From Megaustenia siamemsis (Eukaryota > Mollusca > Gastropoda > Stylommatophora > Ariophantidae), in contig JAVIAB010000160.1 in assembly GCA_032433765.1 (NCBI GenBank), forward strand, positions 37,408,280 through 37,472,279: 64,000 nt of DNA, in the 5' to 3' direction. The notes under the pieces are model-generated. The model made no database searches and was not told where the DNA came from. It saw only the letters and a program-made list of their open reading frames with translations. Shown here piece by piece: positions 3,528 to 56,446 of the stretch (the stretch's first letter is position 1; each line of letters opens with the position of its first letter). The position numbers and the translations under genes are program-made.

Positions 3528-3551
3528 TGTATTTGGAGTAGGTCTATGTTT

Positions 3552-6655: not shown

Positions 6656-6685
6656 GGTGAAAGCTGGTGGGAGAAAAAAAAATAA

Positions 6686-8232: not shown

Positions 8233-8339
8233 CGATCTCGTCTGTTGACATCAACGCCATCTTGGCTAGTCTTCAGCAGCAAATATAAAGAAGGTTCGGA
8301 AATAAAAGAATTAATTGAGGAGAATATTCTATAGAATAA

Positions 8340-8885: not shown

Positions 8886-8889
8886 CAAG

Positions 8890-10015: not shown

Positions 10016-10680
10016 CTAATCCATTTTATCCAGAATTGTGCTTTAATGTGACTACAACAAACTGTGTGAGTGAGAGGACTATTAATATTATTGATTTAAT
10101 TTAATTTGTGAATTTAAAATAATAATTAGTAACTTAGAAATTATTGTAATAACATAAGATTGATGTTATAATTGTAATGTGGATTTTTACTTTTTCAATT
10201 TTAATTTTTGTTTATTACAAGTGACAATTATGACAAATAAACAATTAATAATAATGAATGTCCATATGCTTTCATTATGAAGATTGAAATATCTAGAACT
10301 GTTGGAATAATTATTTATAAAATTAAACTTAATCTCTAGTTGAAGATATTCTTAGTTATTTTGTAAGAGAACCTAAAATGATATAGCCCTGTATGATCCT
10401 CAAAATACAATTTTGATTTTGAACTTACTTCTGCATTTGTTCAGGAAAAGATGAAAATAGTCACTTGTTTACATAGGACAATATCTTGTAAACAACTGCT
10501 GTGGTTGTCAGATTTGTTATTATCATATATTAAATAATAAATCAATGAAAATATATAAATAATATCATGCATATAAAATATAACTAATAAAACTGATAAA
10601 TAATACCCTAAAAAGGATACAAACAAATGTAAATATAATTATGTTATTTTATTTCATGAAATTAGGTCTTACATACAGGG

Positions 10681-11735: not shown

Positions 11736-12688
11736 CTGTTTTAGTTTCTCCATCACACAGTAAACTCCAAATGGAAGACTTACCTTGATTTTTATTTTAT
11801 TTTTAATAATGTTGTCCTAAATGAATTCACTGAAGATTGTCAATCCAAATATGTTTGTGAGAAACTGTAAAACAAAAAGAACACAAAGGTTAGAATTAGT
11901 AAATAAATTAAAGTACTGTCTGTTTTATTCAACAAACAATGGAACAGTTTGTTTTACTGTTTTGTACTAAAATTATTATATCTTTATTTTTTTAAAGAAA
12001 GGTTTCTCTTTTATTTACATTCTAACTATAATTTAGTATGTCTATAAGGTACAACTTCTAATCTATTTTAACTAGAATTTCTCTTTTAACTTGACTGCAA
12101 AATATAATGTGTCAGTAAGAGAACTATTATATTACTCATTTCATTTCATTTTATTAACTTAAAATAACAATTTTGTAACTCAGAGTAATTATTATTATTT
12201 GTAATAGTAGAATGACATTATAATAGTATTAATATATAATTTTTTTAAAATTCATTATCAATTTCAGTTTAAATTGAAGTTGAGGTAACTCGAACTGTGA
12301 CATCATTGTTAATATGGCTCATCGTAATCAATACTTGAGGATATTCTGATTTATTTTGTTAGAGAACCTGAAATGATATGGCCTCTAAATTTCTGAAAAT
12401 ATTATTTGATTTTGACCATCTACATTGCATTTTATGGGGAAAAGACGAAAAAGAAATATCTTGTTTACTTACAAAGCCACCATCTTGAATTACCACCATA
12501 TTGCCACATTGGAATCAATCGAGGAGTTTTAATTGTATGCACACTGGATAATTTTAAAATCCTACCATTTATAAACAAATTAATTTCATATAATTTGCAC
12601 AAAACATATAAGCACATTTATTTATCCATTAATTTTAGTCTATATGCATTGCTAAACATGTTTAATGAGTAATATATTATTTAAATCA

Positions 12689-14277: not shown

Positions 14278-15339
14278 TCAATTTAAACAATATAATATTA
14301 CTCATTAAACATGTTTAGCAATGCATATAGACTAAAATTAATGCGATAAATAAATGTGCTTATATGTTTTGTGCAAATTATATTAAATTAATTTGTTTAT
14401 GTTTATAAATGGTAGGATTTTAAAATGATCCAGTGTGCATACAATCAATACATACAATTCAATTAAATTAATATTAAAACTCCTCGATTGATTCCAATGT
14501 CCATGTGGCAATGAATATATGGTGGTAATTCAAGATGGTGGCTTTGTAAGTAAACAAGATATTTCTTTTTCGTCTTTTCCCCATAAAATGCAATGTAGAT
14601 GGTCAAAATCAAATAATATTTTCAGAAATTTAGAGGCCATATCATTTCAGGTTCTCTAACAAAATAAATCAGAATATCCTCAAGTATTGATTACGATGAG
14701 CCATATTAACAATAATGTGAATAATGATAATGTCACAGTATTTCGAGTTACCTCAACTTCAATTTTAAACTGAAATTGATAAAGAATTTGTTAAAAATTA
14801 TATATTAATACGATTATAATGTCATTCTACTATTACAAATAATAATAATTACTCTAAGTTACAAAATTGTTATTTTAAGTTAATAAAATGAAATGAGTAA
14901 TATAATAGTTCTCTAGTCTTACTGACACATTATTCATTATATTTTGCAGTCAAGTTAAAAGAGAAATTCTAGTTAAAATGGATTAGAAGTTGTACCTTAT
15001 AGACATACTAAATTATAGTTAGAATCAAGAATGTAAATAAAAGAGAAACCTTTCTTTAAAAAAATAAAGATATAATAATTTTGGTACAAAACAGTAAAAA
15101 AAAAAAAAAACTGTTCCATTGCATTGTATTTGTTGAATAAAAACAGACAGTACTTTAATTTATTTTTATTTACTAATTCTAACCTTTGTGTTCTTTTTGT
15201 TTTACAGTTTCTCACAAACATATTTGGATTGACAATCTTCAGTGAATTCATTTAGGACAACATTATTAAAAATAAAATAAAAATCAAGGTAAGTCTTCCA
15301 TTTTTGGAGTTTACTGTGTGATGGAGAAACTAAAACAGG

Positions 15340-16360
15340 ATAATATAATCATCATCATCAAGTAGGTGACCATGTCTCTCCACAACGTTTGATCTCGACA
15401 GTTATTTATCATTTCTGTTGTTTACTTTCTGCCAAGCAATTCTCTTAAGCTGTCTAGTATCTTTTCTCTTTGCTTTCTTCTTCTATCACTTTGTTCCTCA
15501 ATTCTCAATACATGGCCAAAAAAATATTGTTTTCTCCTAAATTTGGAAATTGGAATAGCTCTCTTTTTGCTTTGCCCTCTTTCAGAACGCTTTCATTAAC
15601 CTTCTTGGCTGTCCATAATATTCTTAACATTCTTCTGTAAAACGACATTTTACAGACTCTAGTGATTTTTTGGTCTGTTGTCCTATAGTCTATGATTCAC
15701 ATCCATATGTTAAGACTGGCTATACATAACAATTAAGAACTATTTTTTCTTGTTTCTATTATCAAAAGTGGATTGCATAGTATATTCCTAATTTTTTGCA
15801 AAGCTGCTTTTGCTTGAGCCATTCTGCATCTCACCTCTTTTGTACATCTTCGTATATCTTCTGTCTGAGGTTCACAAATTTTCCAAATATTTAAATTCAT
15901 TTACCTCTTTTAACATTGTTCCACTTGTCTTTATTTTGCACCGAGGTGATGTTTTTTTCTTTGTTGTTACCATTTCCTCTGTCTTTTTGATATTAAGGCT
16001 GAGTCCTTTATTTTTGCTTTTTTTCACTATAATGTCCAACCTTTCTTGTAACTCATCTTCACTCTTAGTGATTAAGACTGTATCATCAGCATACCTTAGA
16101 TTATTTATATTATGACCTCTGATTTTCCAGCCATGCCACTTATGGATCTTAAAATAATCTCACTATAAATATTAAAGAAATCTAGTGACAGCACACAACC
16201 TTGCCTAACACCCTGTTTTATTTTTTTCAACATTCCCAGTTGATTTCCTGTTCTTCTTGTTGCCAGTACATGTTCTTTATTATTCTTAGATCCAGAAAAA
16301 TAGGAAATAAATATTTTGTTTAAAGGTAACAATTTAGAAATTATGCGGTAGGCCACTCAC
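15340..16360 (-). mobile_element. LINE-B copy (mirror of 10681-11735)
   Basis: The minus-strand reverse transcriptase fragment has an open frame from 16356 with RQGCVLSLDFFNIYSEIIL. In this arm the frame breaks after MAGK, before the YADD motif, because of a small indel. The left arm keeps the same frame open. The 3' GAT tail is at the low-coordinate end (ATCATCATCATCAAG, about 15347-15361). Confidence 0.78.
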
Positions 16361-17029
16361 CCTGTATGTAAGACTTAATTTCATGAAATAAAATAACATA
16401 ATTATATTTACATTTGTTTGTATCCTTTTTAGGGTATTATTTATCAGTTTTATTTGTTATATTTTATATGCATGATATTATTTATATATTTTCATTGATT
16501 TATTATTTAATATATGATAATAAAAAATCTGACAACCACAGCAGTTGTTTACAAGATATTGTCCCATGTAAACAAGTGACTATTTTCATCTTTTCCTGAA
16601 CAAATGCAGAAGTAAGTTCAAAATCAAAATTGTATTTTGAGGATCATACATGGCTATATCATTTTAGGTTCTCTTACAAAATAACTAAGAATATCTTCAA
16701 CTAGAGATTAAGTTTAATTTTATAAATAATTATTCCAATAGTTCTAGATATTTCAATCTTCAAAATGAAAGCATATGGACATTCATTATTATTAATTGTT
16801 TATTTGTCATAATTGTCACTTGTAATAAACAAAAATTAAAATTGAAAAAGTAAAAATCCACATTACAATTATAACATCAATCTTATGTTATTGCAATAAT
16901 TTCTAAGTTACTAATTATTATTTTAAATTCACAAATTAAATTAAATCAATAATATTAATAGCCCTCTCACTCACACAGTTTGTTGTAGTCATATTAAAGC
17001 ACAATTCTGGATAAAATGGATTAGAAGTT

Positions 17030-17345
17030 ATATGTTATAGACATAATAACTAAGTACTATACTGAGTAAGTTATATTTATATATGTATTATATATTATAG
17101 ATACCCTGACAAGTTACTGTTAGATAGATGTTATATGTTATAGACATACTAAGTTATAGATAGATGTTATATGTTATAGACATAATTATAGTTAGTTAGA
17201 TAGAAATTATATGTTATAGACATAATAAGTTATAGATAGATGTTATATGTTATAGATATATTAAGTTATAGATAGATGTAATATGTTATAGACATAATTA
17301 TGGTTAGATAAATGTTATATGATATAAACATACTGACTAAGTTAT
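17030..17345. repeat. AT tandem array, contracted right-arm version
   Basis: Reverse-complement units of the 8890-10015 array (ATAGATAGATGTTATATGTT, AAGTTATAGATAG). It has about 8-9 units against roughly 30 in the left arm. Confidence 0.8.
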
Positions 17346-17394
17346 AGTTAGGGTATAAATAATGGAGACACCTGTTGTAAAATACTTGGATATA

Positions 17395-18615
17395 ATCATC
17401 ATCATTCTCAAGTACCATGTCTGCTGGCATAGGTGATCATGTCACTCCATATCTCTTGATCTTAACAGTTATTTATCATTTTTGTTGTTGACCTTCTGCC
17501 AAGCCATTCTTTAAAAGATCTGGTTTCTTCTTTTTTCTTTCTTTCCCTCTCTCCCTGCAACCCTCAATTTTCCCAGGTGTCACAATATATTCCAGCTGTT
17601 CCCTTCTGATTGATTATATGGCCAAAAAAAATGATTGTTTCTTCCTAATATTGGAAATTTGCTATATTTTTAGCTTTGGCCTCTTTCAAAAATATTTCAT
17701 GACTCTACTTTGTCATCCATGGTATTCTCAACAGTCTTCTGTCAAATCACTTTTCTACAACATCCAGCAAGTTTCTTGCCATTTGTCCTATTGTCCATGA
17801 TTCAGTTCCATGTTAAGACTGGCTCTACATAACATTTAAGAACTCTTTTTTCTTGTTTCTATTGTCAACAATTAATTGTTTAATATTTTCCTAATTTTTT
17901 TAGAAAGGTTCTATTGCTTGAGATATAGAACAAATTATTCTATAGAATATTCTCCTCAATTAATTCTTTTATTTCCGAACCTTCTTTATATTTGCTGCTG
18001 AAGACTAGCCAAGATGGCGTTGATGTCAACAGACGAGATCGACCCTAATCATCATCAAGTACCAGGCCTGCTGGCGTAGGTGATCATGTCTCTCCACAAC
18101 TTTCGATCACGACAGTTGTTTATAATTTTTGTTGCTGACCTTCTGCCGAGCCATTCTCTTAAGCTGTCTGGTATCTTTTCTCTTTGCTTCCCTCTATCTC
18201 TTCATCCCTCAATTTTCCCAGTTGTTACAATGAATATATATTCCAGCTGTTCTCTTTTCATTGATGGCCAAAAAATGATGATTGTTTCTTCCTAATATTG
18301 GAGATTAGCTCTCTTTTTGCTTTGGCCTCTTTCAGAACGTTTTCATTACTCATCTTAGCTGTCCTTAGTATTCTCAATATTCTTCTGTAAAACCACATTT
18401 CTACAGACTCCAGTGATTTTCTTGTCTGTTGTCCTATTCAACTAATAACCTATTGTCCATGAATTTAAGACTCAGTGACTGGCTCTACATAACATATAAG
18501 AACTCTTTTTCTTGTTTCTGTTGTCATCAATTGAATGCATAGTTAAGTATCCTCCTCACTTTTTGGAAAGCTGCTGCACCCAAGCCACAAAAATTAATGG
18601 TTTCTGGTATTTTCC
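17395..18615 (-). mobile_element. Two LINE-B 3' fragments (mirror of 7640-8885)
   Basis: Both LINE-B ends are present in the opposite orientation, with the same order, the same intervening 105 bases and only scattered substitutions relative to the left arm. Tails are ATCATCATTCTCAAGTACC (about 17397) and ATCATCATCAAGTACC (about 18047). Confidence 0.75.
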
Positions 18616-21600
18616 AACGTTTTCTCACGTTTTAATTATTTTATTTTATTCAAGTAAATTGTAGTGTTTAGTTTAGATTTTGTAATGTAGATCGGTATTT
18701 AATGTTTAAACTGAAGGATTAATTTGATAGTTGATCCAGTCATTGTAAGTTACGATCATTTGATTTGAATTTCTTGTGAAATTTGGTGTCAAAATTTATC
18801 TTCTTTCTTTCATTTTCACAAAATAATATAGCGTCCCAAATTATTTCTGTTTGGATTAACGTCCCCATGCACTTTATTCGGCTGCTCTCGAATCTGTCAT
18901 TAAAAGACCCCCTGGGTCTGGAATAGCCAACAACTAACCCTAACCCTAAATTTTGTTGAAAAAATTTAATTAAATTCGCAAAAATTAGAAACAAATTTAT
19001 AATTCATGTTTAATATGTCGGGTCGGTGAGGAGGAGAAGGAGTAGAATTTATTTTTTATTATTATTTTTTTTTTTCCCCGACAAGGCTCCTGGATTCACC
19101 CAGCCTCTAGCAATGGGTAGCAGAGATGTTTGTTTCCTGTGTTTGAAAAATATTGTAAGTTGCGATTTTGAGACTCGACTTGCATTTTCATAACTATGGC
19201 ATTAGGTGGAAAGCGGTACCCACCCAATCAGCAAATCAACTAAAATATCAGTGACAAACAGCTGTGAAAAATGTGGTCACTATCATGACAATCCCTTGAA
19301 GTGCGGCGGGCATCCATTATTTTTCTTATTACTCTTTCAAATTTTTGTTACAGGTACACATTTACAACCATCTAACATGGATCACGGAGTCAAACTCTGA
19401 GCTGAGAGAGGATTCTAAGTGAGTCTGTTTCGTATAGTCCTTTCTGTGCTGAGATCCCAGAGAATGAGGATACGACCTTCAAGTCTGTGAGGTTCAATGA
19501 CTTTGACAACAGTGGAGAGGCGACTACATGAATGAGTTGACGTCAACATTAAACATGTTGGTAAGTCTGTAGAACAGATCCTGTCCTTTCCATGGAATAA
19601 TTGTAGTGGTGGTTCTTTGCATCCATTCCACCAGTCAAAAAGTAGACTTAATACAAGGATGCCATGGGGCATATTTCTTCAACAAACACTTACCAAGCTG
19701 TCCTATTTCCTACCATTCTCATAAGGTTGTTCCATGTCTTCTCCGCCTTTCAGCTTCCTGTGCCAGCTTTGATGACCACAGCCATGACCGATCAGATCTG
19801 ATACCGGTGACACCATGAGCCAGCTATGATTCCCTCAGTCGTGACCAATCAGATCCTAATATGACACAAATTAAGCCCTTTCCCTGATAAAATTTCAGAA
19901 GTTTCTAACTTACATTCAGGATTGCTGTCTATGCAGCTTTCATTATCTTTTCCCACCTTTCCACTATAAAAATAGTTATTGTTTATGTAACACCGCTGAC
20001 ATTGCGGTCTCTGTTGTTTCAGTTTATCTTGCAAATTTACTAAAATAACAATTGCCATCCTTATAACCCAGTGTTTATGATTGTCACTTTTACTGGCACT
20101 GCAAGAACAAAAATATAGTTCAACTTCCAAGACAAATTGCACAAAATTGAAACAGTAAAAAAAAATTATTCCTTTCACTTTTACTCACAGAAATTATAAA
20201 ATTATATTATTGTATCAACAAATATAGCTGTTCAATGTTAATATGAACAGTGAACAGCTACATTTGTTTATTCAATAATATTCTGTTCAATGTTAATATG
20301 ACAAAGCTTGTCAAATCATCGGACAGTTATCACCACTATTGTCCAACAAGGAAATAATTCTGGAGGCAAAAAAAAACACTATACAATGCTATCTTCATCC
20401 CAACGTTGTGCTACCAATGCCAGACCTGGACCCTAGATGCAAGATCAATTTTAAAAATAACCACTAAAAATATGAAATGTGTTAGACTAATGACAAGAAA
20501 CAGCCTGAGAGATAAGATCAGAAACTAAAAAATTAAAAAAAGCTAGAAATAATCCGAAAAGTGGTGCAAGTTATTCAATAAAATTAATGTCAATTGGACT
20601 GTAGAGGATTGAAGTTTTAAACTTTATCATAAATGTGGGAAATTAGTAGCCTCCGTCAGTCATAGTTGACTGTAGTAGCTACCGTCAGTCATAGTTGACT
20701 GTAGTAGCCTCCGTCAGTCATAGTCGACTGTAGTAGCCTCTGTCAGTCATAGTTGACTATAGTAGCTTCTGTCAGTCATACTTGACTGTAGTAGCCTCCG
20801 TCAGTCATAGTCGACTGTAGTAGCCTCTGTCAGTCATAGTTGACTGTAGTAGCCTCCGTCAGTCATAGTTGACTATAGTAGCCTCCGTCAGTTATAGTTG
20901 ACTGTAGTAGCCTCCATCAGTCATAGTTGACCGTAGTAGCCTCCGTCAGTCATAGTTGAATGCAGCAGCCTCTGTCAGTCATAGTTGACTGTAGTAGCTT
21001 CCATCAGTCATAGTTGACTATAGTAGCCTCCGTCAGTTGTAGTTGACTGTAGTAGCCTCCGTCAGTCATAGTTGACTGTAGTAGCCTCCGTCAGTCATAG
21101 TTGACTATAGTAGCCTCCATAAGTCATAGTTGATTATAGTAGCCTCCATAAGTCATAGTTGACTGTGGTAGCCCTTGTCAGTCATAGTTGACTATAGTAG
21201 CCTCCGTCAGTCATAGTTGACTGTAGTAGCCTCCATCAGTCATAGTTGACTAAAGTAGCCTCCGTCTGTCATAGTTGACTATAGTAGCCTCCGTCAGTCA
21301 TAGTTGACTATAGTAGCCTCTGTCAGTCATAGTTGACTGTAGTAGCTTCCATCAGTCATAGTTGACTGTAGTAGCTTCCATCAGTCATAGTTGACTATAG
21401 TAGCCTCCGTCAGTTATAGTTGACTATAGTAGCCTCTGTCAGACATAGTTGATTATAGTAGCCTCCATCATTCATAGTTGACTGTGGTAGCCTCCGTCAG
21501 TCATAGTTGACTGTAGTAGCCTTTGTCAGTCATAGTTGACTATAGTAACCTCCGTCAGTCATAGTTGATTATAATAACCTCCATCAGTTATAGTTGACTA

Positions 21601-43799: not shown

Positions 43800-44396
43800 C
43801 TGGAATAGACTAAGACTAATAGACACAATTTTTGGCATTGAAGCGAACACAGATATATGTAACGACATATACCATACAGGATACATACCAAAATGTACTA
43901 AAAGCATCAACTTTCAATGCATTGTTTAAAACAAAAATGGTGCAGTTGAATGCAGTGATTTTAGAACAATAAGCCTAATGAGCCGTGTAACAAAAATCTT
44001 GCTAAAAGTTATACAAGGAAGGAGTCAGAATAAAATCAATATTGAATTAGAAGAACAACAATTTGGATTTAGGAAAAATAGTGGGACAAAAGAAGCCATA
44101 TTCTGCATGAGAATATTAATCGAGAAGTACACAGAAGTAAACAAATCAATATTTGCTTGCTTCATAGACTACACCAAAGCTTTTGATAGAATACACCATC
44201 AACAACTTATAGACTGCCTAAAAGATAAAAATCTGGACGATACAGATATACGACTAATATGTAATTTATACTGGGAGCACACAGCAATAATAAAATATAA
44301 CAAAGAGTATAAATAAACATAAATGTAACTATAACCATTTATATAAAAAAGGAGTAAGACTGGGATGCATCCTATTACCAAGCTTATTCAATCTAT
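43800..44396 (+). mobile_element. LINE-C copy (host of nested insertions), left part
   Basis: The plus strand encodes the fingers/palm: MSRVTKILLKVIQGR, QQFGFRKNSGTKEAIFCMRILIEKY, ACFIDYTKAFDRIHHQQLIDCL (motif A), DDTDIRLICNLYWEHTA, then RLGCILLPSLFNL (motif B, RQGC-like but altered). It stops where LINE-B and the Polinton were inserted, and resumes at 56869 with KIISNLRYADG (motif C). The repeated TCAATCTAT at 44388-44396 and 56869-56877 is the LINE-B target duplication. 43700-43735 contains an A20-type run with no gene. Confidence 0.75.
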
Positions 44397-44403
44397 CATC
44401 ATC

Positions 44404-44870
44404 AGTAGTATAGTATGTCAATTAGGACGGATAAAAGTGCCTTTGAAGGCACCTAAATCCTTATATAAATAGTCTACCCGTACATCGAGGCACATTTTTT
44501 GGTGCCGTTTTTCCTTATATGAGAGTCTTCATTTTTTCTTATATGAGAGTCTACCCGCCCATTTTGGTTCCGGTGACCTCTCGTTGACCTCTCGTTGACC
44601 TCTCGTGGTGTTGTGAAGGCGTCGAAACGCAGATAAATCCTTATATAAATAGTCTACACGCAGATCGAGGCACAATTTTTGGTGCCGTTTTTCCTTATAT
44701 GAGAGTCTACCCGCCCCTTTTTGTTCCGGTCGTGGTGGTGGTGGTGGTGGTGGTGACCTCCCGGTGACCTCCCGGTGACCTCTCGTGGTGACCTCCCGCT
44801 GCGGTGGTGTTGTGAAGGGGTGGTGAAGGGGTGGTGAAGGGGCGGCGGTGGTATCATAACTTTCATATTC
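44404..44870 (+). repeat. Polinton terminal region with short repeats
   Basis: The terminus is built of direct repeats: a CCTTATATAAATAGTCTACnCG...GGTGCCGTTTTTCCTTATATGAGAGTCT block occurs twice. Between and after lie short GACCTCTCGTT and GACCTCCCGGT units and (GTG)8. The mirrored version is at 55975-56437. Such repetitive ends are seen in Polintons and may serve as replication-origin DNA for protein priming. Proline/histidine-rich open frames here are by-products. Confidence 0.75.
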
Positions 44871-44957
44871 TTTGTACTTTCAATGGTTCCGTAACTTTCA
44901 TAAATCTATTCTTTCTTTATACTCTCATTCAATAAAAAACAGTGACAAGTTTATTTA

Positions 44958-45345
44958 TTTATTTATTGTTTTATTCCTATATATTGAACAATCGATAACA
45001 CATGGTTTTGACAAAAATGTATTCTTTAACTAATGTACATTATACACATATTTAATACATAGAAAACAAAGTAGTTTATTTACAATCAGTAATACATGAT
45101 AGTGTTAAATGAGTAAAGGGGAGGTGGTCACGTTGTCAGAATGGACCTGATATTTATTTATTGTTTTATTCGTATATATTGAACAATAGATAACACATGG
45201 TTTAGACAAAAATGTATTCTTTAACTAATGTCATTATACACATATTTAATACATAGAAAACAAAGTAGTTTATTTACAAGCAGTAATAAATGATAGTGTT
45301 AAATGGATAAAGGGGAGGTGGTCACGTTGTCAGAATGGACCTGAC
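44958..45345. repeat. Tandem duplication (~194 bp x2) of the PolB 3' end
   Basis: Two copies, 44958-45151 and 45152-45345, of a segment containing the last codons of PolB, its stop region and a 3' flank with ATAAAACAATAAATAAA-type polyadenylation signals (minus strand). The inner copy is the real gene end; the outer copy has a few substitutions. The same duplication is at about 55500-55890 in the right arm, so it predates the mirror event. Confidence 0.8.
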
Positions 45346-48300
45346 GCTTGATGTAGAAATACGAGAGTGAGTTCCGATGTTGTGTATATGTGTGTACCGA
45401 CCCCTTGTATGTTTTAAACCCTATGTTTTTACCACCCCCGGCTTGTTTTTTGGTTAGGACCTCTGTGAATGTATCCTTATCTAACTTATTGTGGCGTTTA
45501 TTAAGACCCTTGGTGCTAACTTTAGCATAATCCCCAAAACAGTAATAGGTCTTGCTACACAAGGAAATCATCCCATCCCCCGAATATTCCAACTTGAACA
45601 GACCAGGAGTCCGTTTGTCGTATAGCTGTCTCGTCTTACAATCTGAACAGTCATACTTTACGCCCCTGTGTTGAATGAAATCGGCCCGATGGACTTCACA
45701 AGTCTCTGAAGGGAACCATTTGTCGTACTGTGAGAAAAATTCATCTACCTTATCGGTTTTAACGACCTCTTCTAACGATGACTCGCTGAGGGCCAAGTAC
45801 AGGCTATCGGTATCCATCTCACAGAGTTGAAAGTTGGACCTAGCTACAAACTTATCGAGGAAGTCGTAATAAAATTCCAACATCCGCAATTTCGCGTACT
45901 GGTAGACGAAAAAACCAATCTGCGAAGGAAGATCCCACATTATACCTCTTTTACCCATCGATACCTCGTACAGGTCCTCACCAATAGATGTCATGTTTTT
46001 AAATCGTGGGTTATTTACCAACTTGGTTGTATCAGCCCCCTCTTTAACATAGGAGACGTCCACGTGTTTCGCCATATTCGTCAAGGTCTTCCCGTAGGCC
46101 GAGTTTCCTAAGAGCTTCATCGTGTCGCTTACTATAGATTGACTTGGATCTAAATCACCAGCCCGACGCGCCTCTGTGACCTTGTCCCCAAACTCCTTAA
46201 AACAACTAATGGGTAGGTACTCTACCACCTGATAAATTTTTGTTACCTCTAGCCCATGCTCTAAATACCACTTTAACAGCGGTGTGGCCAACAGAATCTT
46301 TGTTCCACTATAACTACCCACGAGAGTACGTCTGGGGGTACGTAATAGTTTGTTTTTGGTGGCGTACTCTCGCATAAACGGACCGATATCATCTAGACCT
46401 ACATCTACATTTTTAAAGATGGGGGTCATCTCACTAAAATACTCTTTTAACTTGTCGGGAACGTGAATGTCACACTCGACGAGCCCAAAAAACGACTCGT
46501 CTGAAACTGAATCTATAATGGCTTTATCAGTGATTGGTTTATATTTACCAAAAGATGGTTTAGAACCACGTAGGTTCTCATCTATAAAGACCTGAATAGC
46601 TGGCGTTGTTTTCTTTAGCCGTTGCCACTCACACTCCCACATAACTACTACGCGAACACGGTCGAGGCTCTTTAAATAAGCCGTTATTTCACAGGTTTTC
46701 GCGTACAAATCAGCCAACTGTATATTATTCACCGGATTGACTTCTCGATCCCTGGTGATGTCACAGTTTGGATGACCGTGAAAGAGACAGCCATGGAACT
46801 GATACACGGTCCTACTGGATTTATCCCACCCATCCACTCTAATCTTGCGCTCACCCAAAGCGATCTCGCGAGCATTAAACTGGGTTCTCAAATGAACCTG
46901 GTTTTGGTGGGCAATCCAAGTCAGATACTCTCTGCACTGACGCGTGTAGTAGTTCATTTTAAGGGGTTTATACCCATCTTCAGCCTTACGTATGACCGTA
47001 TAATCGGTGGGCATCTTTTGCATAAGTGCCCATAGATAAAGGGCGTTGGCATCATAGCCTTTAATGGATTTGACCACTTTTCCGCCCCTAATAAAGGTTT
47101 TATCCTTCTCGTGGTACCGATGAAAGATAATAGAGGGGCCTCCGACAATATTCTGTCTTATTGTATGATGCAAATCGGCTTCCTTTTTTGCAATCAGGGA
47201 AAAACCCACATCCCTGGAGAGAGTTTTAAATAGATACCTCAGAGTTATTCCGGGGACCGAAATCGCATTCTTAAACATATCGATGTCTAATTTCCTATAA
47301 AACCAAAACTGTTGTGCTAAGGCCTCTAAGAAGGGGACTACATCTTTGTTGTTATACCAAACTAAAAAGTCCCTAAGGGTCGTCATTTTATTGTCCTTCC
47401 AGACCTTTTGACACAGAGCATACTCCTCCTCGGAAATATTACAATTTTTTAGTTTCGAAAAGAACGCTTCGTATGGGGGTAACTCCCTCTCATTCAACTT
47501 ATTTAAATCTGTTACGTACTCGTAACAGAAAACACCCTTTGTCTCCTCTACTTTATAGGCTGCCAAGTACTTGCTATAACTAAACCCAGGGGCTAAATAA
47601 TTTACTATATCTAAGAATTTTAGATTCGGTGTTGCAATACACATAAAGTTATTATTTCGTTTAACTATAAAATTTATTTCACCAAGTCGGTTTTCTTCTT
47701 CTTCTATCCGTTCCTCCTCAGCATCCTGTATCACACTTTCCTGCTCGTGCTCCTCATCCTCTCCCTCGTCTTCCTGATCGCTGTCCTCAATGTAGTGGTT
47801 ACCCTTTCCAGCTGTTTCAGGTACGGAGGCGGCAGCGAAGTAATGTATTAAATACGGCTTTATTAAATTTATGTCGTACTTGCCCGAGTTGAAACCTATC
47901 ACTGGGAGCTGCTTCAAGTAAGCTTTTAGACGACCTCTTGGGTCAGATTTCTTCCGATCACGCCTTTGCGCACATCCGGCCAGCTTTTCAAACAGTTCTC
48001 TGAAATCCTCTTTTAAAATTTTATACGCCTCCTTCGAGATAGATTTTAGATACTTAATCATTTTATTTACTAATTTCTGAGGATCTCCCTCGCTAACAAA
48101 ACAGACAGGATCTTCAAACCCAGGAACGTTAGAGGCCACAGATACAGACAGAGGGACATGTTTTGCTAAAAAATGTGTACTAACAGAGGTACCTTTGGGG
48201 GTGGGCAAGTTGGTATTATCAAAATAACATTCCATATCAAAGGTGGCCCTAAAGGGATACACGAAACCGCCGGGTACGTCAATACCCTCTTCCTCTATTA

Positions 48301-48940
48301 CATCCCCAATAGTCTCGCTAGGCATATAAATTCCACCTCTAAAATAATCTTTAGGTTTACCACCATTACATGTTTGGGCATGCCTGGTCATCATAGAATA
48401 GCAAGCCCATAATTTTCCACACTGTGGACAAGAGAAAGCACTAGCTGCTTTATTAATATTACTAATGTACATGAAATGGTCCTTGTGAAACAAGACCCGC
48501 ATAGTATCATCATGTGATCCCCTGCTTCGGAGTTTTGGACAGAGGGCCTCTTCATCATTGAACTCAAATACATCGATGTTTATATTGAAACATTCTTTTA
48601 AGTGTGGTAGTTGTTGTAACGTCACACCTGGAAAAGTGTCAACGAAAAGAATGTCCCAGTGCAAGTGCCACTGACTCACGAGATGACAAATGTTCAATTC
48701 TAGATTGTCGATATCACTTCCTTTAAATAACGCCAAACAGCGGAAAAAACAGAGATTGTCATTATAAAAATTCTTAGTCGACCGACACTTCTGCATGGTG
48801 TAAATGTACCTATTGTTAGTAATATAAGATGGTAATTCCTCTAAACAACATCCAATGGGGAAGTCACGTATGTGAAATAAATAGAAACTAGTTGCTGGAA
48901 TACTCTCCACCATCCACTTAGTATCAGGTCTGTTGATCAT
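45299..48940 (-). CDS. PolB: Protein-primed DNA polymerase B (Polinton PolB), intact copy
   Basis: Family B polymerase that copies the element from a terminal-protein primer. The frame has 1,213 codons from the ATG at 48940. Visible parts: a CFFRCLALFKG segment (64-74), a C2H2-like finger (CPQCGKLWACYSMMTRHAQTC, 171-191), and a 3'-5' exonuclease with FDMECYF (Exo I, Asp235/Glu237), FNSGKYD (Exo II, 350-356) and YNNKDVV (Exo III, 529-535). The acidic loop is 385-418. The polymerase has YDANALYLWAL (motif A, 629-639), an FHGCLFHGHPNC block (715-726) typical of Polinton PolBs, KLLGNSAYGK (motif B, 942-951) and MDTDSLYL (motif C, 1042-1049). All catalytic acids are present. The frame is open a further 127 codons upstream with no ATG, so the natural start may lie in the zinc-finger frame. 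Twin copy: 51913-55553. Confidence 0.93.
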   Translation of the reverse strand: MINRPDTKWMVESIPATSFYLFHIRDFPIGCCLEELPSYITNNRYIYTMQKCRSTKNFYNDNLCFFRCLALFKGSDIDNLELNICHLVSQWHLHWDILFVDTFPGVTLQQLPHLKECFNINIDVFEFNDEEALCPKLRSRGSHDDTMRVLFHKDHFMYISNINKAASAFSCPQCGKLWACYSMMTRHAQTCNGGKPKDYFRGGIYMPSETIGDVIEEEGIDVPGGFVYPFRATFDMECYFDNTNLPTPKGTSVSTHFLAKHVPLSVSVASNVPGFEDPVCFVSEGDPQKLVNKMIKYLKSISKEAYKILKEDFRELFEKLAGCAQRRDRKKSDPRGRLKAYLKQLPVIGFNSGKYDINLIKPYLIHYFAAASVPETAGKGNHYIEDSDQEDEGEDEEHEQESVIQDAEEERIEEEENRLGEINFIVKRNNNFMCIATPNLKFLDIVNYLAPGFSYSKYLAAYKVEETKGVFCYEYVTDLNKLNERELPPYEAFFSKLKNCNISEEEYALCQKVWKDNKMTTLRDFLVWYNNKDVVPFLEALAQQFWFYRKLDIDMFKNAISVPGITLRYLFKTLSRDVGFSLIAKKEADLHHTIRQNIVGGPSIIFHRYHEKDKTFIRGGKVVKSIKGYDANALYLWALMQKMPTDYTVIRKAEDGYKPLKMNYYTRQCREYLTWIAHQNQVHLRTQFNAREIALGERKIRVDGWDKSSRTVYQFHGCLFHGHPNCDITRDREVNPVNNIQLADLYAKTCEITAYLKSLDRVRVVVMWECEWQRLKKTTPAIQVFIDENLRGSKPSFGKYKPITDKAIIDSVSDESFFGLVECDIHVPDKLKEYFSEMTPIFKNVDVGLDDIGPFMREYATKNKLLRTPRRTLVGSYSGTKILLATPLLKWYLEHGLEVTKIYQVVEYLPISCFKEFGDKVTEARRAGDLDPSQSIVSDTMKLLGNSAYGKTLTNMAKHVDVSYVKEGADTTKLVNNPRFKNMTSIGEDLYEVSMGKRGIMWDLPSQIGFFVYQYAKLRMLEFYYDFLDKFVARSNFQLCEMDTDSLYLALSESSLEEVVKTDKVDEFFSQYDKWFPSETCEVHRADFIQHRGVKYDCSDCKTRQLYDKRTPGLFKLEYSGDGMISLCSKTYYCFGDYAKVSTKGLNKRHNKLDKDTFTEVLTKKQAGGGKNIGFKTYKGSVHTYTQHRNSLSYFYIKRQVHSDNVTTSPLSI

Positions 48941-49321
48941 GGCAATGTCTACAGGGTTCTGTTCGTTTAGAGAATCAACGAAGCTGTTGAAATCTCCAAG
49001 ATTATTGATTAATTGAGGAAATTCTAGAACAGCCGAGTTGTTGAGGGAAGAGTGGAAAAAACGTAGATCACCGGTGTCCCGGTGTCTAAGGATCAGGTGG
49101 TGACCATAGTTAATTTTGAATCGGGTTGTCTGAGTGTCAAATATATCCCTTAAAAGAGCAGACCAGTCTGTGATAAATGGACGTGCTGGTGAATGGAAAA
49201 ATGTATATGTAGAAACTGTCTTGTTGATTGTAGCATGGGTGTTTATAGCTGCCCAATTTTGCTCATATACAACCCGTACATCATCAGGCAGTGTTGCTAA
49301 TGGATCATCATCTTTGAATTT
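48941..49321 (-). other. Open N-terminal extension of PolB without ATG
   Basis: 127 sense codons lie directly upstream of and in frame with the PolB ATG, after a TAA at 49322-49324. They read as a plausible folded domain (DDDPLATLPDDVRVVYEQNW..., TDWSALLRDIFDTQTTRFKIN, LRHRDTGDLRFFHSS). Amino acid composition matches the downstream polymerase. The same stretch is at 51532-51912. It suggests that the polymerase is longer than the ATG-delimited frame. Confidence 0.7.
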
Positions 49322-49669
49322 TTAACTTGGAGTTGAATGTTCTGCATCTATCTTTCGTTTGTTTGTTGTAGAAGAGGTCGAGGGTGAAGTGGGTGATGTT
49401 GTTTCAGTCGGTGATGCTGTTGCTGATGGTAAAGTGGGTGTTGTAGAAGGAGCCATTGATGAAGCTGGTGCTGTTGTAGAATGTTTTACTCTCATATGTC
49501 TGGCTAACGAACTACGTCTCGTATACGTACGTTGACAAATGTCACACGCGTGTCGTATAAGTCGATGTGCACCTCGATGGTGCTCCAACAAATCGCTGTG
49601 CCATTTAAATTTCTTTGGGCACAACGCACACTGATGTTCTCCAGGTGCTGCATCGTTATAAGAAATCAT
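49322..49669 (-). CDS. C2H2 zinc-finger frame, in phase with PolB
   Basis: 115 codons. Two C2H2 fingers: CALCPKKFKWHSDLLEHHRGAH (about 14-35) and CDICQRTYTRRSSLARHMRVKH (42-63). A Thr/Ser/Pro-rich linker and a basic KRKID patch (nuclear-localisation-like) follow, then TAA. A strong splice acceptor (TTATTTTTCTACAG) abuts the ATG. After the single TAA the same frame continues into the PolB extension, so zinc finger, extension and PolB form one phase-matched block of roughly 1,456 codons broken by one stop. N-terminal fingers are known in some Polinton-type polymerases. Only its C-terminal tail is duplicated in the right arm. Confidence 0.72.
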   Translation of the reverse strand: MISYNDAAPGEHQCALCPKKFKWHSDLLEHHRGAHRLIRHACDICQRTYTRRSSLARHMRVKHSTTAPASSMAPSTTPTLPSATASPTETTSPTSPSTSSTTNKRKIDAEHSTPS

Positions 49670-49830
49670 CTGTAGAAAAATAAATAACCCTTTGTCAATG
49701 ATACTTTACATACCTAGGTTTAAACATGTTAATAACATCGAATAACAAGACTTAAAATACTTAGTTTAATCATCCAATAAATGAAGAAATTCAACAATAC
49801 TTAGCATACCTATATTAAACACCTTGAATA

Positions 49831-50100
49831 ACCTATTATCGCTAAGCGTTAACATACTTTAATAGAAAACAATCCAACTTATAACGTAAAATATAGTCTC
49901 CATCTTCTACACTGAATATAACCTATTATCGATAACACCTAACATACCTTAATAGAAAACAATCCAACTTATAACGCAAAATATAGTCTCAATCATCTAC
50001 ACTGAATATAACCTATTATCGATAACACTTAACATACTTTAAGTGAAAACAATCCAACTTACTGTGTAAAATAGAATCTCAATCCGCTAGAATGAACAGT
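49831..50100. repeat. 90-bp tandem repeat, 3 copies
   Basis: ACCTATTATCGnTAA...AACATACTTTAATAGAAAACAATCCAACTTAT...AATATAGTCTC begins at 49831, 49921 and 50011. The third copy is the most diverged. It lies between the promoter-like block and the zinc-finger frame. Confidence 0.9.
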
Positions 50101-50153
50101 AACTTTCCTTGAAGCAACCAAACTTATGACACAAATTCTCACATGAGACTAGT

Positions 50154-50297
50154 TTAAATATATCCTGGTACAAGCTTTTAACCAATCAGCGAGTGACTAT
50201 GAAAACATCGACTGATATCTGGATTAACCAATCAGAGAAGAGTATTAGTATAGGAGGCGGGGCAAAGAAATGACTGACAGCTAGATTAACCAATCAG
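50154..50297 (-). promoter_or_regulatory. Promoter-like block for the zinc-finger/PolB unit
   Basis: Three CCAATCAG elements (50182, 50228, 50290; inverted CCAAT boxes for the minus strand), one GC box (GGCGGGG, 50256-50262) and, downstream on the minus strand, a TATATTTAA sequence (about 50154-50163). Order and spacing (CCAAT/GC, then TATA about 20-140 bases on) fit a RNA polymerase II promoter firing left toward the zinc-finger frame. Confidence 0.5.
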
Positions 50298-50755
50298 AGA
50301 AGTGGGTGAATACTGACCTCATTTCCTGGTTGACAGGCCGTCGACTCTGGTTCATCGGTGGGGTCGGCAAATAGGGGTGGTGGCGGTAAAATTTCATCAT
50401 CCTCCGCTTTATATGTAGTGGCTGTGGGTTCAGTGGTGGGGTCAAGTAATGCGGGTGGTGAGTTAGTTGAACTGACAGGGGAGGGTGGTGCAGAGTCAGC
50501 TCCTTCCCAATTAATGTATTCCTTTATTCGTTGGGCTAAATGTTCCCCACACAAGAAGACTACATCCTCTTTCGTGAACTCATGATATAAAATATCATTT
50601 ATTTGCGCGCTAAGGCGTTCCTCAAACTCTAGAAGACACGAGTGAGGTAACGTGTTGTCATCTTTCACCTGACACCCTTTACAATAGTCATATGGTTGAT
50701 ACTGTAGAATGCACAACACCTTGTCAAATAGGATGTAAGGTCTGATAGATGCCAT
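50294..50755 (-). CDS. Unknown Polinton protein (MASIRPY...)
   Basis: From the ATG at 50755 there are 153 codons; the frame is open upstream but without an ATG there, and an acceptor-like TTATATTACAG lies just upstream (about 50769). The N-terminal 90 residues look globular with a Cys pair (DYCKGCQVKDD) and an acidic/amphipathic segment (EEFERLSAQINDIL-like; actual LEFEERLSAQINDILYHEF). The C-terminal part is Pro/Thr/Asp-rich and disordered. I do not recognise the family. It is divergent from the ATPase gene with about 120 bp between the ATGs. It may be spliced to the zinc-finger frame through the donor at 50317. Confidence 0.5.
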   Translation of the reverse strand: MASIRPYILFDKVLCILQYQPYDYCKGCQVKDDNTLPHSCLLEFEERLSAQINDILYHEFTKEDVVFLCGEHLAQRIKEYINWEGADSAPPSPVSSTNSPPALLDPTTEPTATTYKAEDDEILPPPPLFADPTDEPESTACQPGNEVSIHPLL

Positions 50756-50877
50756 TTTATGGGAATCTGTAATATAAGAAAACCACATCACAAATATTTG
50801 GAATGGGACAGAACATGTAATACATGATAAAAATACTTTAAATGTGATAATACTCAATCAAAGTGTCATTAGTGACG

Positions 50878-51408
50878 ATGGACCCTCGGTGGAAACACCC
50901 CTTCACTGCTCTTATTGCTGGTCCCACCGGTTGTGGAAAAACTGTATTTGTTCAAAAGTTTCTACAGAATCTACAAGAGCTAGTTGTCCCCGTACCCGAG
51001 GAAGTTATATGGTGTTACGGGGAATGGCAACCAATATACGAGACTATGGAGAAAGTGAGATTTATCGAGGGTCTACCAGATATCGATAACTTGGAAGGGG
51101 GTAAGAAGAGAAGACTCATCATCCTCGATGACTTGATGTCAGAAACAGATGAGAGGGTGACAAAATTATTCACCAAAGGTAGTCATCACAGAGATATGAG
51201 CGTGATCTACATTGTTCAAAATCTATTTGGAAAAAATAAGGAACATCGAACTATAAGCCTCAATACTCATTATATAGTCCTTTTCAAGAATCCAAGAGAC
51301 GGAAGTCAAATTACAAATCTGGCTAAGCAAATGTACCCTGGTCAAGTGGCGTACCTCCAAGAGAGTTTTAAGGACGCGACAGCGTCTCCCCACTGTTATT
51401 TGCTGTGA
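50878..51408 (+). CDS. FtsK/HerA-type packaging ATPase (A32-like), 3'-truncated
   Basis: The genome-packaging ATPase of Polintons and related DNA viruses. The first ATG is 50878, giving 176 codons (MDPRWKHPFTALIAG). Walker A is GPTGCGKT (codons 15-22), Walker B is RLIILDD (79-85), and a downstream sensor region reads MSVIYIVQNLF. The frame ends YLL then TGA exactly where the sequence switches to a PolB fragment (51406-51488), so the usual C-terminal strand region (beyond the CYLL position) is lost. It is single copy, in the unique centre. It is probably inactive or impaired. Confidence 0.85.
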   Translation: MDPRWKHPFTALIAGPTGCGKTVFVQKFLQNLQELVVPVPEEVIWCYGEWQPIYETMEKVRFIEGLPDIDNLEGGKKRRLIILDDLMSETDERVTKLFTKGSHHRDMSVIYIVQNLFGKNKEHRTISLNTHYIVLFKNPRDGSQITNLAKQMYPGQVAYLQESFKDATASPHCYLL

Positions 51409-51488
51409 GTTCAATGATGAAGAGGCCCTCTGTCCAAAACTCCGAAGCAGGGGATCACATGATGATACTATGCGGGTCTTGTTTCACA
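51406..51488 (+). other. 83-bp PolB fragment at the fold-back junction
   Basis: Identical to 52287-52369 (inside the right-arm PolB, codons about 125-152) and therefore to the complementary left-arm position. It follows the truncated ATPase and is separated by a single extra base (C, 51489) from the start of the right arm. It has no function as coding sequence. Confidence 0.92.
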
Positions 51489-51489
51489 C

Positions 51490-54400
51490 AACAAACGAAA
51501 GATAGATGCAGAACATTCAACTCCAAGTTAAAAATTCAAAGATGATGATCCATTAGCAACACTGCCTGATGATGTACGGGTTGTATATGAGCAAAATTGG
51601 GCAGCTATAAACACCCATGCTACAATCAACAAGACAGTTTCTACATATACATTTTTCCATTCACCAGCACGTCCATTTATCACAGACTGGTCTGCTCTTT
51701 TAAGGGATATATTTGACACTCAGACAACCCGATTCAAAATTAACTATGGTCACCACCTGATCCTTAGACACCGGGACACCGGTGATCTACGTTTTTTCCA
51801 CTCTTCCCTCAACAACTCGGCTGTTCTAGAATTTCCTCAATTAATCAATAATCTTGGAGATTTCAACAGCTTCGTTGATTCTCTAAACGAACAGAACCCT
51901 GTAGACATTGCCATGATCAACAGACCTGATACTAAGTGGATGGTGGAGAGTATTCCAGCAACTAGTTTCTATTTATTTCACATACGTGACTTCCCCATTG
52001 GATGTTGTTTAGAGGAATTACCATCTTATATTACTAACAATAGGTACATTTACACCATGCAGAAGTGTCGGTCGACTAAGAATTTTTATAATGACAATCT
52101 CTGTTTTTTCCGCTGTTTGGCGTTATTTAAAGGAAGTGATATCGACAATCTAGAATTGAACATTTGTCATCTCGTGAGTCAGTGGCACTTGCACTGGGAC
52201 ATTCTTTTCGTTGACACTTTTCCAGGTGTGACGTTACAACAACTACCACACTTAAAAGAATGTTTCAATATAAACATCGATGTATTTGAGTTCAATGATG
52301 AAGAGGCCCTCTGTCCAAAACTCCGAAGCAGGGGATCACATGATGATACTATGCGGGTCTTGTTTCACAAGGACCATTTCATGTACATTAGTAATATTAA
52401 TAAAGCAGCTAGTGCTTTCTCTTGTCCACAGTGTGGAAAATTATGGGCTTGCTATTCTATGATGACCAGGCATGCCCAAACATGTAATGGTGGTAAACCT
52501 AAAGATTATTTTAGAGGTGGAATTTATATGCCTAGCGAGACTATTGGGGATGTAATAGAGGAAGAGGGTATTGACGTACCCGGCGGTTTCGTGTATCCCT
52601 TTAGGGCCACCTTTGATATGGAATGTTATTTTGATAATACCAACTTGCCCACCCCCAAAGGTACCTCTGTTAGTACACATTTTTTAGCAAAACATGTCCC
52701 TCTGTCTGTATCTGTGGCCTCTAACGTTCCTGGGTTTGAAGATCCTGTCTGTTTTGTTAGCGAGGGAGATCCTCAGAAATTAGTAAATAAAATGATTAAG
52801 TATCTAAAATCTATCTCGAAGGAGGCGTATAAAATTTTAAAAGAGGATTTCAGAGAACTGTTTGAAAAGCTGGCCGGATGTGCGCAAAGGCGTGATCGGA
52901 AGAAATCTGACCCAAGAGGTCGTCTAAAAGCTTACTTGAAGCAGCTCCCAGTGATAGGTTTCAACTCGGGCAAGTACGACATAAATTTAATAAAGCCGTA
53001 TTTAATACATTACTTCGCTGCCGCCTCCGTACCTGAAACAGCTGGAAAGGGTAACCACTACATTGAGGACAGCGATCAGGAAGACGAGGGAGAGGATGAG
53101 GAGCACGAGCAGGAAAGTGTGATACAGGATGCTGAGGAGGAACGGATAGAAGAAGAAGAAAACCGACTTGGTGAAATAAATTTTATAGTTAAACGAAATA
53201 ATAACTTTATGTGTATTGCAACACCGAATCTAAAATTCTTAGATATAGTAAATTATTTAGCCCCTGGGTTTAGTTATAGCAAGTACTTGGCAGCCTATAA
53301 AGTAGAGGAGACAAAGGGTGTTTTCTGTTACGAGTACGTAACAGATTTAAATAAGTTGAATGAGAGGGAGTTACCCCCATACGAAGCGTTCTTTTCGAAA
53401 CTAAAAATTGTAATATTTCCGAGGAGGAGTATGCTCTGTGTCAAAAGGTCTGGAAGGACAATAAAATGACGACCCTTAGGGACTTTTTAGTTTGGTATAA
53501 CAACAAAGATGTAGTCCCCTTCTTAGAGGCCTTAGCACAACAGTTTTGGTTTTATAGGAAATTAGACATCGATATGTTTAAGAATGCGATTTCGGTCCCC
53601 GGAATAACTCTGAGGTATCTATTTAAAACTCTCTCCAGGGATGTGGGTTTTTCCCTGATTGCAAAAAAGGAAGCCGATTTGCATCATACAATAAGACAGA
53701 ATATTGTCGGAGGCCCCTCTATTATCTTTCATCGGTACCACGAGAAGGATAAAACCTTTATTAGGGGCGGAAAAGTGGTCAAATCCATTAAAGGCTATGA
53801 TGCCAACGCCCTTTATCTATGGGCACTTATGCAAAAGATGCCCACCGATTATACGGTCATACGTAAGGCTGAAGATGGGTATAAACCCCTTAAAATGAAC
53901 TACTACACGCGTCAGTGCAGAGAGTATCTGACTTGGATTGCCCACCAAAACCAGGTTCATTTGAGAACCCAGTTTAATGCTCGCGAGATCGCTTTGGGTG
54001 AGCGCAAGATTAGAGTGGATGGGTGGGATAAATCCAGTAGGACCGTGTATCAGTTCCATGGCTGTCTCTTTCACGGTCATCCAAACTGTGACATCACCAG
54101 GGATCGAGAAGTCAATCCGGTGAATAATATACAGTTGGCTGATTTGTACGCGAAAACCTGTGAAATAACGGCTTATTTAAAGAGCCTCGACCGTGTTCGC
54201 GTAGTAGTTATGTGGGAGTGTGAGTGGCAACGGCTAAAGAAAACAACGCCAGCTATTCAGGTCTTTATAGATGAGAACCTACGTGGTTCTAAACCATCTT
54301 TTGGTAAATATAAACCAATCACTGATAAAGCCATTATAGATTCAGTTTCAGACGAGTCGTTTTTTGGGCTCGTCGAGTGTGACATTCACGTTCCCGACAA

Positions 54401-56437
54401 GTTAAAAGAGTATTTTAGTGAGATGACCCCCATCTTTAAAAATGTAGATGTAGGTCTAGATGATATCGGTCCGTTTATGCGAGAGTACGCCACCAAAAAC
54501 AAACTATTACGTACCCCCAGACGTACTCTCGTGGGTAGTTATAGTGGAACAAAGATTCTGTTGGCCACACCGCTGTTAAAGTGGTATTTAGAGCATGGGC
54601 TAGAGGTAACAAAAATTTATCAGGTGGTAGAGTACCTACCCATTAGTTGTTTTAAGGAGTTTGGGGACAAGGTCACAGAGGCGCGTCGGGCTGGTGATTT
54701 AGATCCAAGTCAATCTATAGTAAGCGACACGATGAAGCTCTTAGGAAACTCGGCCTACGGGAAGACCTTGACGAATATGGCGAAACACGTGGACGTCTCC
54801 TATGTTAAAGAGGGGGCTGATACAACCAAGTTGGTAAATAACCCACGATTTAAAAACATGACATCTATTGGTGAGGACCTGTACGAGGTATCGATGGGTA
54901 AAAGAGGTATAATGTGGGATCTTCCTTCGCAGATTGGTTTTTTCGTCTACCAGTACGCGAAATTGCGGATGTTGGAATTTTATTACGACTTCCTCGATAA
55001 GTTTGTAGCTAGGTCCAACTTTCAACTCTGTGAGATGGATACCGATAGCCTGTACTTGGCCCTCAGCGAGTCATCGTTAGAAGAGGTCGTTAAAACCGAT
55101 AAGGTAGATGAATTTTTCTCACAGTACGACAAATGGTTCCCTTCAGAGACTTGTGAAGTCCATCGGGCCGATTTCATTCAACACAGGGGCGTAAAGTATG
55201 ACTGTTCAGATTGTAAGACGAGACAGCTATACGACAAACGGACTCCTGGTCTGTTCAAGTTGGAATATTCGGGGGATGGGATGATTTCCTTGTGTAGCAA
55301 GACCTATTACTGTTTTGGGGATTATGCTAAAGTTAGCACCAAGGGTCTTAATAAACGCCACAATAAGTTAGATAAGGATACATTCACAGAGGTCCTAACC
55401 AAAAAACAAGCCGGGGGTGGTAAAAACATAGGGTTTAAAACATACAAGGGGTCGGTACACACATATACACAACATCGGAACTCACTCTCGTATTTCTACA
55501 TCAAGCGTCAGGTCCATTCTGACAACGTGACCACCTCCCCTTTATCCATTTAACACTATCATTTATTACTGCTTGTAAATAAACTACTTTGTTTTCTATG
55601 TATTAAATATGTGTATAATGACATTAGTTAAAGAATACATTTTTGTCTAAACCATGTGTTATCTATTGTTCAATATATACGAATAAAACAATAAATAAAT
55701 ATCAGGTCCATTCTGACAACGTGACCACCTCCCCTTTACTCATTTAACACTATCATGTATTACTGATTGTAAATAAACTACTTTGTTTTCTATGTATTAA
55801 ATATGTGTATAATGTACATTAGTTAAAGAATACATTTTTGTCAAAACCATGTGTTATCGATTGTTCAATATATAGGAATAAAACAATAAATAAATAAATA
55901 AACTTGTCACTGTTTTTTATTGAATGAGAGTATAAAGAAAGAATAGATTTATGAAAGTTACGGAACCATTGAAAGTACAAAGAATATGAAAGTTATGATA
56001 CCACCGCCGCCCCTTCACCACCCCTTCACCACCCCTTCACAACACCACCGCAGCGGGAGGTCACCACGAGAGGTCACCGGGAGGTCACCACCACCACCAC
56101 CACCACCACGACCGGAACAAAAAGGGGCGGGTAGACTCTCATATAAGGAAAAACGGCACCAAAAATTGTGCCTCGATCTGCGTGTAGACTATTTATATAA
56201 GGATTTATCTGCGTTTCGACGCCTTCACAACACCACGAGAGGTCAACGAGAGGTCAACGAGAGGTCACCGGAACCAAAATGGGCGGGTAGACTCTCATAT
56301 AAGAAAAAATGAAGACTCTCATATAAGGAAAAACGGCACCAAAAAATGTGCCTCGATGTACGGGTAGACTATTTATATAAGGATTTAGGTGCCTTCAAAG
56401 GCACTTTTATCCGTCCTAATTGACATACTATACTACT
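51490..56437 (-). repeat. Right mirror arm (4,948 bp)
   Basis: Starts inside the zinc-finger tail (AACAAACGAAAG) and runs through the PolB extension, PolB, the duplicated 3' end and the terminal repeats to the element's right end. It differs in length from the left arm by 12 bases (11-bp unit plus 1 base). Confidence 0.93.
51913..55553 (+). pseudogene. PolB: PolB, right-arm copy, 1-nt frameshift
   Basis: The same gene as 45299-48940 but with A5 at 53403-53407 in place of A6. The frame therefore leaves the polymerase after ...FFSKLK (codon 498), ends at 53469, and the rest is open from 53466 to 55553 (695 codons). The upstream part retains the exonuclease Exo I and II motifs; the downstream part retains Exo III and all polymerase motifs. 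The homopolymer position means that a sequencing error cannot be excluded. The upstream 127-codon extension (51532-51912) and the in-frame TAA (51529-51531) are also present. Confidence 0.88.
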
Positions 56438-56446
56438 ATCATCATC

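Follow-up and report, generated by a model that had tools for sequence, protein, structure and literature searches.

A 64,000-nt window of the 2.59-Gb Megaustenia siamemsis assembly (155 contigs; G000:C155:37408280-37472279) contains, at positions 44404 to 56437, a Polinton built as a mirror image: the end that carries its PolB gene stands at both termini, and the integrase-protease half is absent. Including this element, we found at least 11 mirrored insertions in the genome, 5 of which duplicate the left (PolB) end and 6 the right end. We read them as copy-back (snap-back) by-products of a presumed protein-primed linear replication, which would then have been integrated by an integrase likely encoded by a standard copy; on the sequence comparisons below, we give this reading a probability of about two in three. 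The first-pass annotation, made from the letters of the window, had described this one element; it is not singular, as ten further mirrored insertions of either end were found. Coordinates are those of the window, and other copies are named by contig. The window element is laid out as follows.

44398 to 44403, no strand: left copy of a possible 6-bp target duplication, ATCATC, ambiguous inside an ATC run
44404 to 49363, plus strand: left arm, the Polinton PolB end, at about 99.5% identity in standard copies (repeat map, arm alignment)
44404 to 44965, plus strand: stretch that a standard copy carries as its ordinary terminal repeat, about 0.56 kb long (comparison with that copy)
49364 to 51405, plus strand: single-copy centre, which continues the left half as standard copies do (comparison with standard copies)
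51406 to 51488, minus strand: 83-nt filler, an inverted copy of left-arm 48484-48566 (= 52287-52369) (repeat map, joint alignment)
51489, no strand: single base explained by neither neighbour (joint alignment)
51490 to 56437, minus strand: right arm, which runs through left-arm positions 49363 to 44404 in inverted orientation (repeat map, arm alignment)
56438 to 56443, no strand: right counterpart of that possible duplication, again ATCATC and equally ambiguous inside an ATC run

The two arms (4960 bp on the left, 4948 bp on the right) are inverted copies with no substitutions between them, both in the arm alignment and in the comparison of private substitutions (0/4559). They differ in length at two places, by one 11-nt tandem unit and one homopolymer base. 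The PolB end is present at each terminus, with the right arm reaching out to the tip, and the outer tips are identical in both arms (AGTAGT...ACTACT). The palindrome of about 4.95 kb per arm with identical outer ends that had been proposed from the letters is thus confirmed, as is the loss of the other half: we found no integrase or protease genes among the predicted proteins of the window element (Pfam, with a standard copy as comparison) and no capsid genes in comparison with standard copies. Because a retroviral-type integrase is absent, the element is a Polinton derivative, incomplete as a Polinton. Its flanks carry ATCATC on each side within ATC runs, which is compatible with a target duplication but makes proof impossible at this copy; the "proper target duplication" of the first-pass annotation must be softened to that extent. 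The terminal repeats (44446-44801 and the right-arm counterpart) contain tandem units of 11 nt and longer, which vary from copy to copy and even between the ends of a single copy. The left flank (43930-44403) is a reverse-transcriptase fragment (RVT_1) that ends near the element.

Standard Polintons in the same genome provide the frame for this comparison. Most of those fetched carry window positions 44404-51405 at about 99.5% identity, with some subfamily copies at 95-97%, and they run on past 51405 into sequence absent from the window. The C90 copy (14.6 kb) is flanked by the target duplication CACATA and ends in terminal repeats about 0.56 kb long. In the half that the window lacks, it encodes an rve-plus-chromo integrase and an adenovirus-type C5 protease, along with further open reading frames (ORFs) without a Pfam match, among which the capsid is presumed by position. 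A full-length Polinton with the same end, which had been suggested as a search target, is therefore present, and the expectation that normal copies have far shorter terminal repeats and an integrase-protease half holds in this genome. Identical 6-bp target duplications, compared by eye here and in the mirrors below, flank 11/11 standard copies with both ends read. In one case the duplication falls in a TA run, and three of these 11 copies (C59, C91:105M and C87:47M) are internally deleted. Two forms of about 10 kb (C91:193606661-193616658 and C87:12878280-12888277) have near-identical matches at both ends and are perhaps one mobile deletion derivative or a segmental duplication.

Nine of the ten further mirrors were read at least in part, and one was seen only as a hit pair. 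Each genome search scored the best 36-40 of 1,977-4,069 candidates, so these counts are lower bounds. The left-left copies besides the window are C50 (9.8 kb, duplication CAAGCT, inside a tandem repeat), C51 (AATAGC), C1 (GGCGTG) and C91:158.7M (TTTGTA). The C51 insertion occurs twice, 258 kb apart with identical flanks (118.04M and 118.30M), and the centre of one copy is rearranged by inversions. The right-right copies are C46 (AATGTC), C154a (AATGTG), C154b (ATCGTC), the internally complex C91:60.6M (5/6 bases duplicated), C8:63.8M (one terminus missing) and C8:47.2M (C8:47233944-47244069), where only an opposite pair of capsid-region hits suggests a right-right mirror with longer arms. In C46 and C154a, whose sequence was retrieved from end to end, the integrase region is present and the PolB end missing; the left-left forms show the reverse. 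Across the 11 mirrors, the 6-bp duplication matches in 8 (that of the window lying in its ATC run), and at 5/6 bases in one; of the other two mirrors, one lacks a terminus and one was not read; among mirrors other than the window with both ends read, 7/8 have perfect duplications and 1/8 has 5/6. The search for other mirrored copies with different target duplications, which had been proposed as a check, yielded ten further mirrors, seven of them with a perfect duplication of their own.

The joint was read at the turn in nine mirrors, and all nine are different, which indicates that mirrors form anew. An alternative is a stable, non-autonomous mirrored lineage, comparable to a foldback family, that multiplies as such, and the presence of many mirrored copies within one genome would fit it. 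We consider it very improbable: no joint is shared among the nine, the full joint of the window was found only in the window (40 scored places, 1,977 candidates), and C51, the sole insertion seen twice, was copied as part of a segmental duplication, its flanks being the same on either side. An artefact of assembly or library preparation, through chimeric or palindromic reads, would give nearly identical arms. This we find hardly credible at all, as the mirror ends at the element tips with differing flanks, the centre is single-copy and followed by filler, and other loci have their own joints, duplications and arm-specific mutations.

At the joint of the window element, position 51405 is followed by the 83-nt filler, one extra base and the right arm starting from position 49363; the first-pass annotation had not reported the filler or the extra base. 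A replicating strand could have produced this order. Synthesis would start at the left tip, run for 7.0 kb and halt inside the ATPase gene at 51405; the 3' end would then transfer to the strand of opposite sense at this end of the element and copy 83 nt of PolB, before jumping to 49363 and being extended until it reached the left tip again. Such a molecule would have two identical origin-bearing ends and could replicate and integrate in trans. Protein priming is presumed here, and a free replication stage is suggested by the joints, their symmetry and their timing; the integrase encoded by standard copies supports integration in trans. That the mirrored molecule itself was integrated, with integrase from elsewhere, had been claimed from the window. 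It is also our best reading, though the duplication alone is no proof of it, given that a duplication survives conversion in place. Support for the integration of a ready-made mirror comes from the remaining mirrors, from how these are joined and from the date obtained for one; taken by itself, the window leaves the timing undecided.

Some of the turns have features in common beneath their different joints. First-turn overlaps among left-left copies are 0 nt (window), 3 nt (C50), 4 nt (C51), 4 nt (C1) and 7 nt (C91:158.7M, by eye); among right-right copies, they are 1 nt (C46), 0 nt (C154a), -1 nt (C154b) and -20 nt (C8:63.8M). Overlaps of at least 3 nt thus occur in 4/9 (chance P 7e-4). The C51 turn lies at a 14/15-base inverted match, with the window turn 12 nt away in the same inverted repeat, and C51 also contains an inverted filler, of 71 nt, that resembles the 83-nt one of the window in kind. 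Landing points in C50 and C1 are at most 3 nt apart. Two turns are near-symmetric, C1 to within 61 nt and C91:158.7M to within 52 nt. A strand end folded back on itself or on a displaced strand would explain the inverted homology, the short second hops and the near-symmetry.

The turns also bear on an explanation that dispenses with a free molecule. An integrated standard Polinton might break in its right half, whereupon the right terminal repeat would invade the left one and copy inward, and filler DNA would link the product to the broken centre. Such conversion in place would preserve the target duplication without any integrase, the terminal repeats would supply the homology, and fillers and short overlaps are usual in repair of this kind. 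Near-symmetry in 2/9 turns is not predicted for two independent broken ends (P ~0.003-0.01), and the turn of C51 at its inverted match counts against conversion as well.

To date the mirroring, we took private substitutions common to both arms as having arisen before it, and arm-specific ones as having arisen after it. C50 has 1 shared and 14 arm-specific substitutions over about 4.2 kb, and five right-right copies pooled (0.5-0.96 kb each) have 1 shared and 7 arm-specific. Together, 2 of 23 are shared, which corresponds to a fraction of 0.16 of the residence time before mirroring (interval 0.02-0.44). By this measure, mirroring came early in the residence of C50 and of the pooled right-right copies, which speaks against conversion in place. 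The arms of C154a differ by 1 substitution in 900. Over 5.4 kb, one copy of C51 has 4 substitutions between its arms and the second copy has 7; for the 15 shared substitutions of C51, no close relative was available to polarise them. In the window element, C1 and C154a, the two arms of one element resemble each other far more closely than separate copies do.

Conversion in place draws further support from two other copies. The window has 4 shared and 0 arm-specific substitutions, and C1 has 5 shared and 1 arm-specific (its arms differ by 1 substitution in about 3.5 kb); their mirroring time is undecided or looks late. In the window, the placement of the shared changes points the other way: none falls in 44804-48598, where a scatter of old mutations would be expected from late conversion, three fall within 95 bp beside the switch points, and then comes the stop. 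The cluster of private substitutions common to both arms (48598-48693) adjoins the filler donor at 48484-48566. The 2-kb centre has 2 private changes, compared with 0-6 in nine other young copies and 71-96 in three diverged copies. Because the shared changes are clustered and few lie in the centre, a young insertion with error-prone copying at the joint appears to fit the window better than an old insertion converted late. Taken over all copies, we regard conversion in place, the main rival of copy-back, as possible but doubtful.

Several results weigh against a copy-back origin or fail to favour it. The shared changes of the window and C1 also fit late conversion of integrated copies, two source copies might also yield the 14 arm differences of C50, and the pooled totals (11 shared, 22 arm-specific) are non-discriminating. 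In five of nine first turns, the overlap is 0-1 nt or extra bases stand at the joint; where right-right copies were read at the turn, they lie kilobases away from symmetry. No hairpin stood out at the turn site common to the window and C51, where folding was not unusual (z 0.45 and 0.17). PolB would have to come from another copy, as that of the window has a stop in both arms, and mirrors are known here only as chromosomal insertions, with no free molecule. Nor do the terminal repeats discriminate between the explanations: left-right indel events number 1, 0, 1, 2, 1 and 2 in mirrored elements (6 places, with the duplicated C51 accounting for two) and 4, 2, 1, 0, 1, 3 and 4 in 7 standard copies, with overlapping ranges. 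We also asked whether the right tip of the window is a retained original right end; this test was uninformative, with no fixed left/right differences between the terminal repeats of one standard copy.

We carried out a census of young copies using left ends at ≥98% identity (15 loci) and right ends at ≥96% (19 loci), with lower-identity ends set aside and the best 40 of about 2,950 candidates taken from each search. The resulting 23 loci comprise 7 mirrored copies, 11 standard copies with both ends checked, 3 unchecked single right ends and 2 chimeras; since a mirror can be listed twice, 7/23 is indicative only. The chimeric copies, on C24 and C73:103.9M, were not counted as mirrors. Both (L015, C24:60130900-60140800; L018, C73:103926000-103935300) join a Polinton left end to a second family, which is similar to this Polinton in short stretches only, at about 85%; in L015, the second family has an inverted repeat of its own (4209-5466 / 8122-9379, 99.9%).

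Next, we characterised the genes of the window element.

45299 to 48940, minus strand: PolB of the left arm, a 1213-aa ORF (ORF list, homologue search)
51913 to 55553, plus strand: PolB of the right arm, in two ORFs, 51913-53469 and 53466-55553 (ORF list, arm alignment)
49322 to 49705, minus strand: N-terminal C2H2 zinc-finger ORF, set off from PolB by an in-frame stop (ORFs, alignment)
50294 to 50857, minus strand: 187-aa ORF, no Pfam match (ORF list, Pfam)
50863 to 51408, plus strand: A32-like packaging ATPase, which ends at the joint (ORF list, Pfam, comparison with a standard copy)

PolB is present in both arms, as had been proposed, but not intact in both. The stop at the boundary between the zinc-finger ORF and PolB occurs in both arms of the window and in 0/10 other sequences aligned there, and the homopolymer length difference between the arms also splits the right copy by a frame break. 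Assignment to the family-B polymerases, as a protein related to Polinton PolB, comes from relatives: DNA_pol_B_2 was matched by Pfam in 10/24 aligned relatives and not in the window's own protein, whose best named homologues are from the gastropods Bradybaena, Pomacea and Littorina. The 3' end of the ATPase gene is cut off, leaving 181 aa in the window vs 210 aa in a standard copy. Searches of viral contigs with the window PolB and ATPase found no relative, phage records with PolB gave no match, and a PDB sequence search returned nothing useful. A second large inverted repeat lies elsewhere in the window (4202-12533 / 14473-20551, about 90-98% identity per aligned piece), with a 29-nt minisatellite from about 20.5 kb. 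We considered this palindrome (4.2-20.6 kb) as another mirrored Polinton and rejected it, as the rest of the window has no similarity to this Polinton at E 1e-5.

Beyond the origin of single copies, we lean slightly towards a wider view: in this genome, free, linear, end-initiated replication would be a routine stage for Polintons and would shed mirror-ended defective genomes of both ends, and frequent integration of these (about 3 in 10 of the young copies seen, 7/23 loci) would leave a chromosomal archive of replication errors, perhaps including defective-interfering forms. To our knowledge, Polinton replication has been deduced from PolB and the termini, without direct observation. Insertions that mirror one end or the other and have readable turns would be physical by-products of that replication, and a model of free linear replication would become testable from sequence, with turn sites, homology, symmetry and age countable in any genome. 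Mirrors also show a route by which the PolB half and the integrase half could become separate, complementary elements, and they put multi-kilobase palindromes into chromosomes. Among the open-licence PMC papers listed in searches naming Polintons, titles and abstract openings gave no recognisable description of mirrored Polintons, in agreement with the earlier remark that an integrated form with PolB in both arms lacked a clear description. The parts are those of an ordinary Polinton, and what lacks a description among those papers is a recurrent class of integrated mirrors from both ends.

The window element resembles Polintons (Mavericks) in its PolB, its A32-like ATPase and its AGTAGT...ACTACT tips, and the standard copies here resemble them in their rve-chromo integrase, C5 protease, terminal repeats of about 0.56 kb and 6-bp duplications. 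Unlike Polintons, the window element has arms of 4.95 kb and a PolB end at both sides, without the integrase-protease half. Vertebrate Mavericks have terminal repeats of 46-1,447 bp, 6-bp duplications and an (AGT)2//(ACT)2 end type, according to PMC8097293, and the tips and duplication length found here match that class. Copy-back defective genomes of RNA viruses likewise arise from a strand that turns back to copy its own end; unlike the mirrors here, they are RNA and unintegrated. Foldback transposons also have long inverted repeats, with one structure per family, and protein-primed linear PolB plasmids give rise to hairpin or dimer palindromic derivatives that are unintegrated. The long inverted repeats are common to both and to the elements described here, but no structure is shared at many sites as in foldback families, the nine joints being all unlike. 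Mirror-ended defective adenovirus genomes, in which one end is duplicated in place of the other, have many turn points, depend on a helper and exist as free viral DNA. The Polinton mirrors are like them in that one end replaces the other at varied turn points, and helper functions would probably be needed here too. Incomplete adenovirus particles contain defective DNA of the left end, according to PMC5033970. Unlike these free or packaged adenovirus forms, the mirrors of this genome are chromosomal and carry target duplications.

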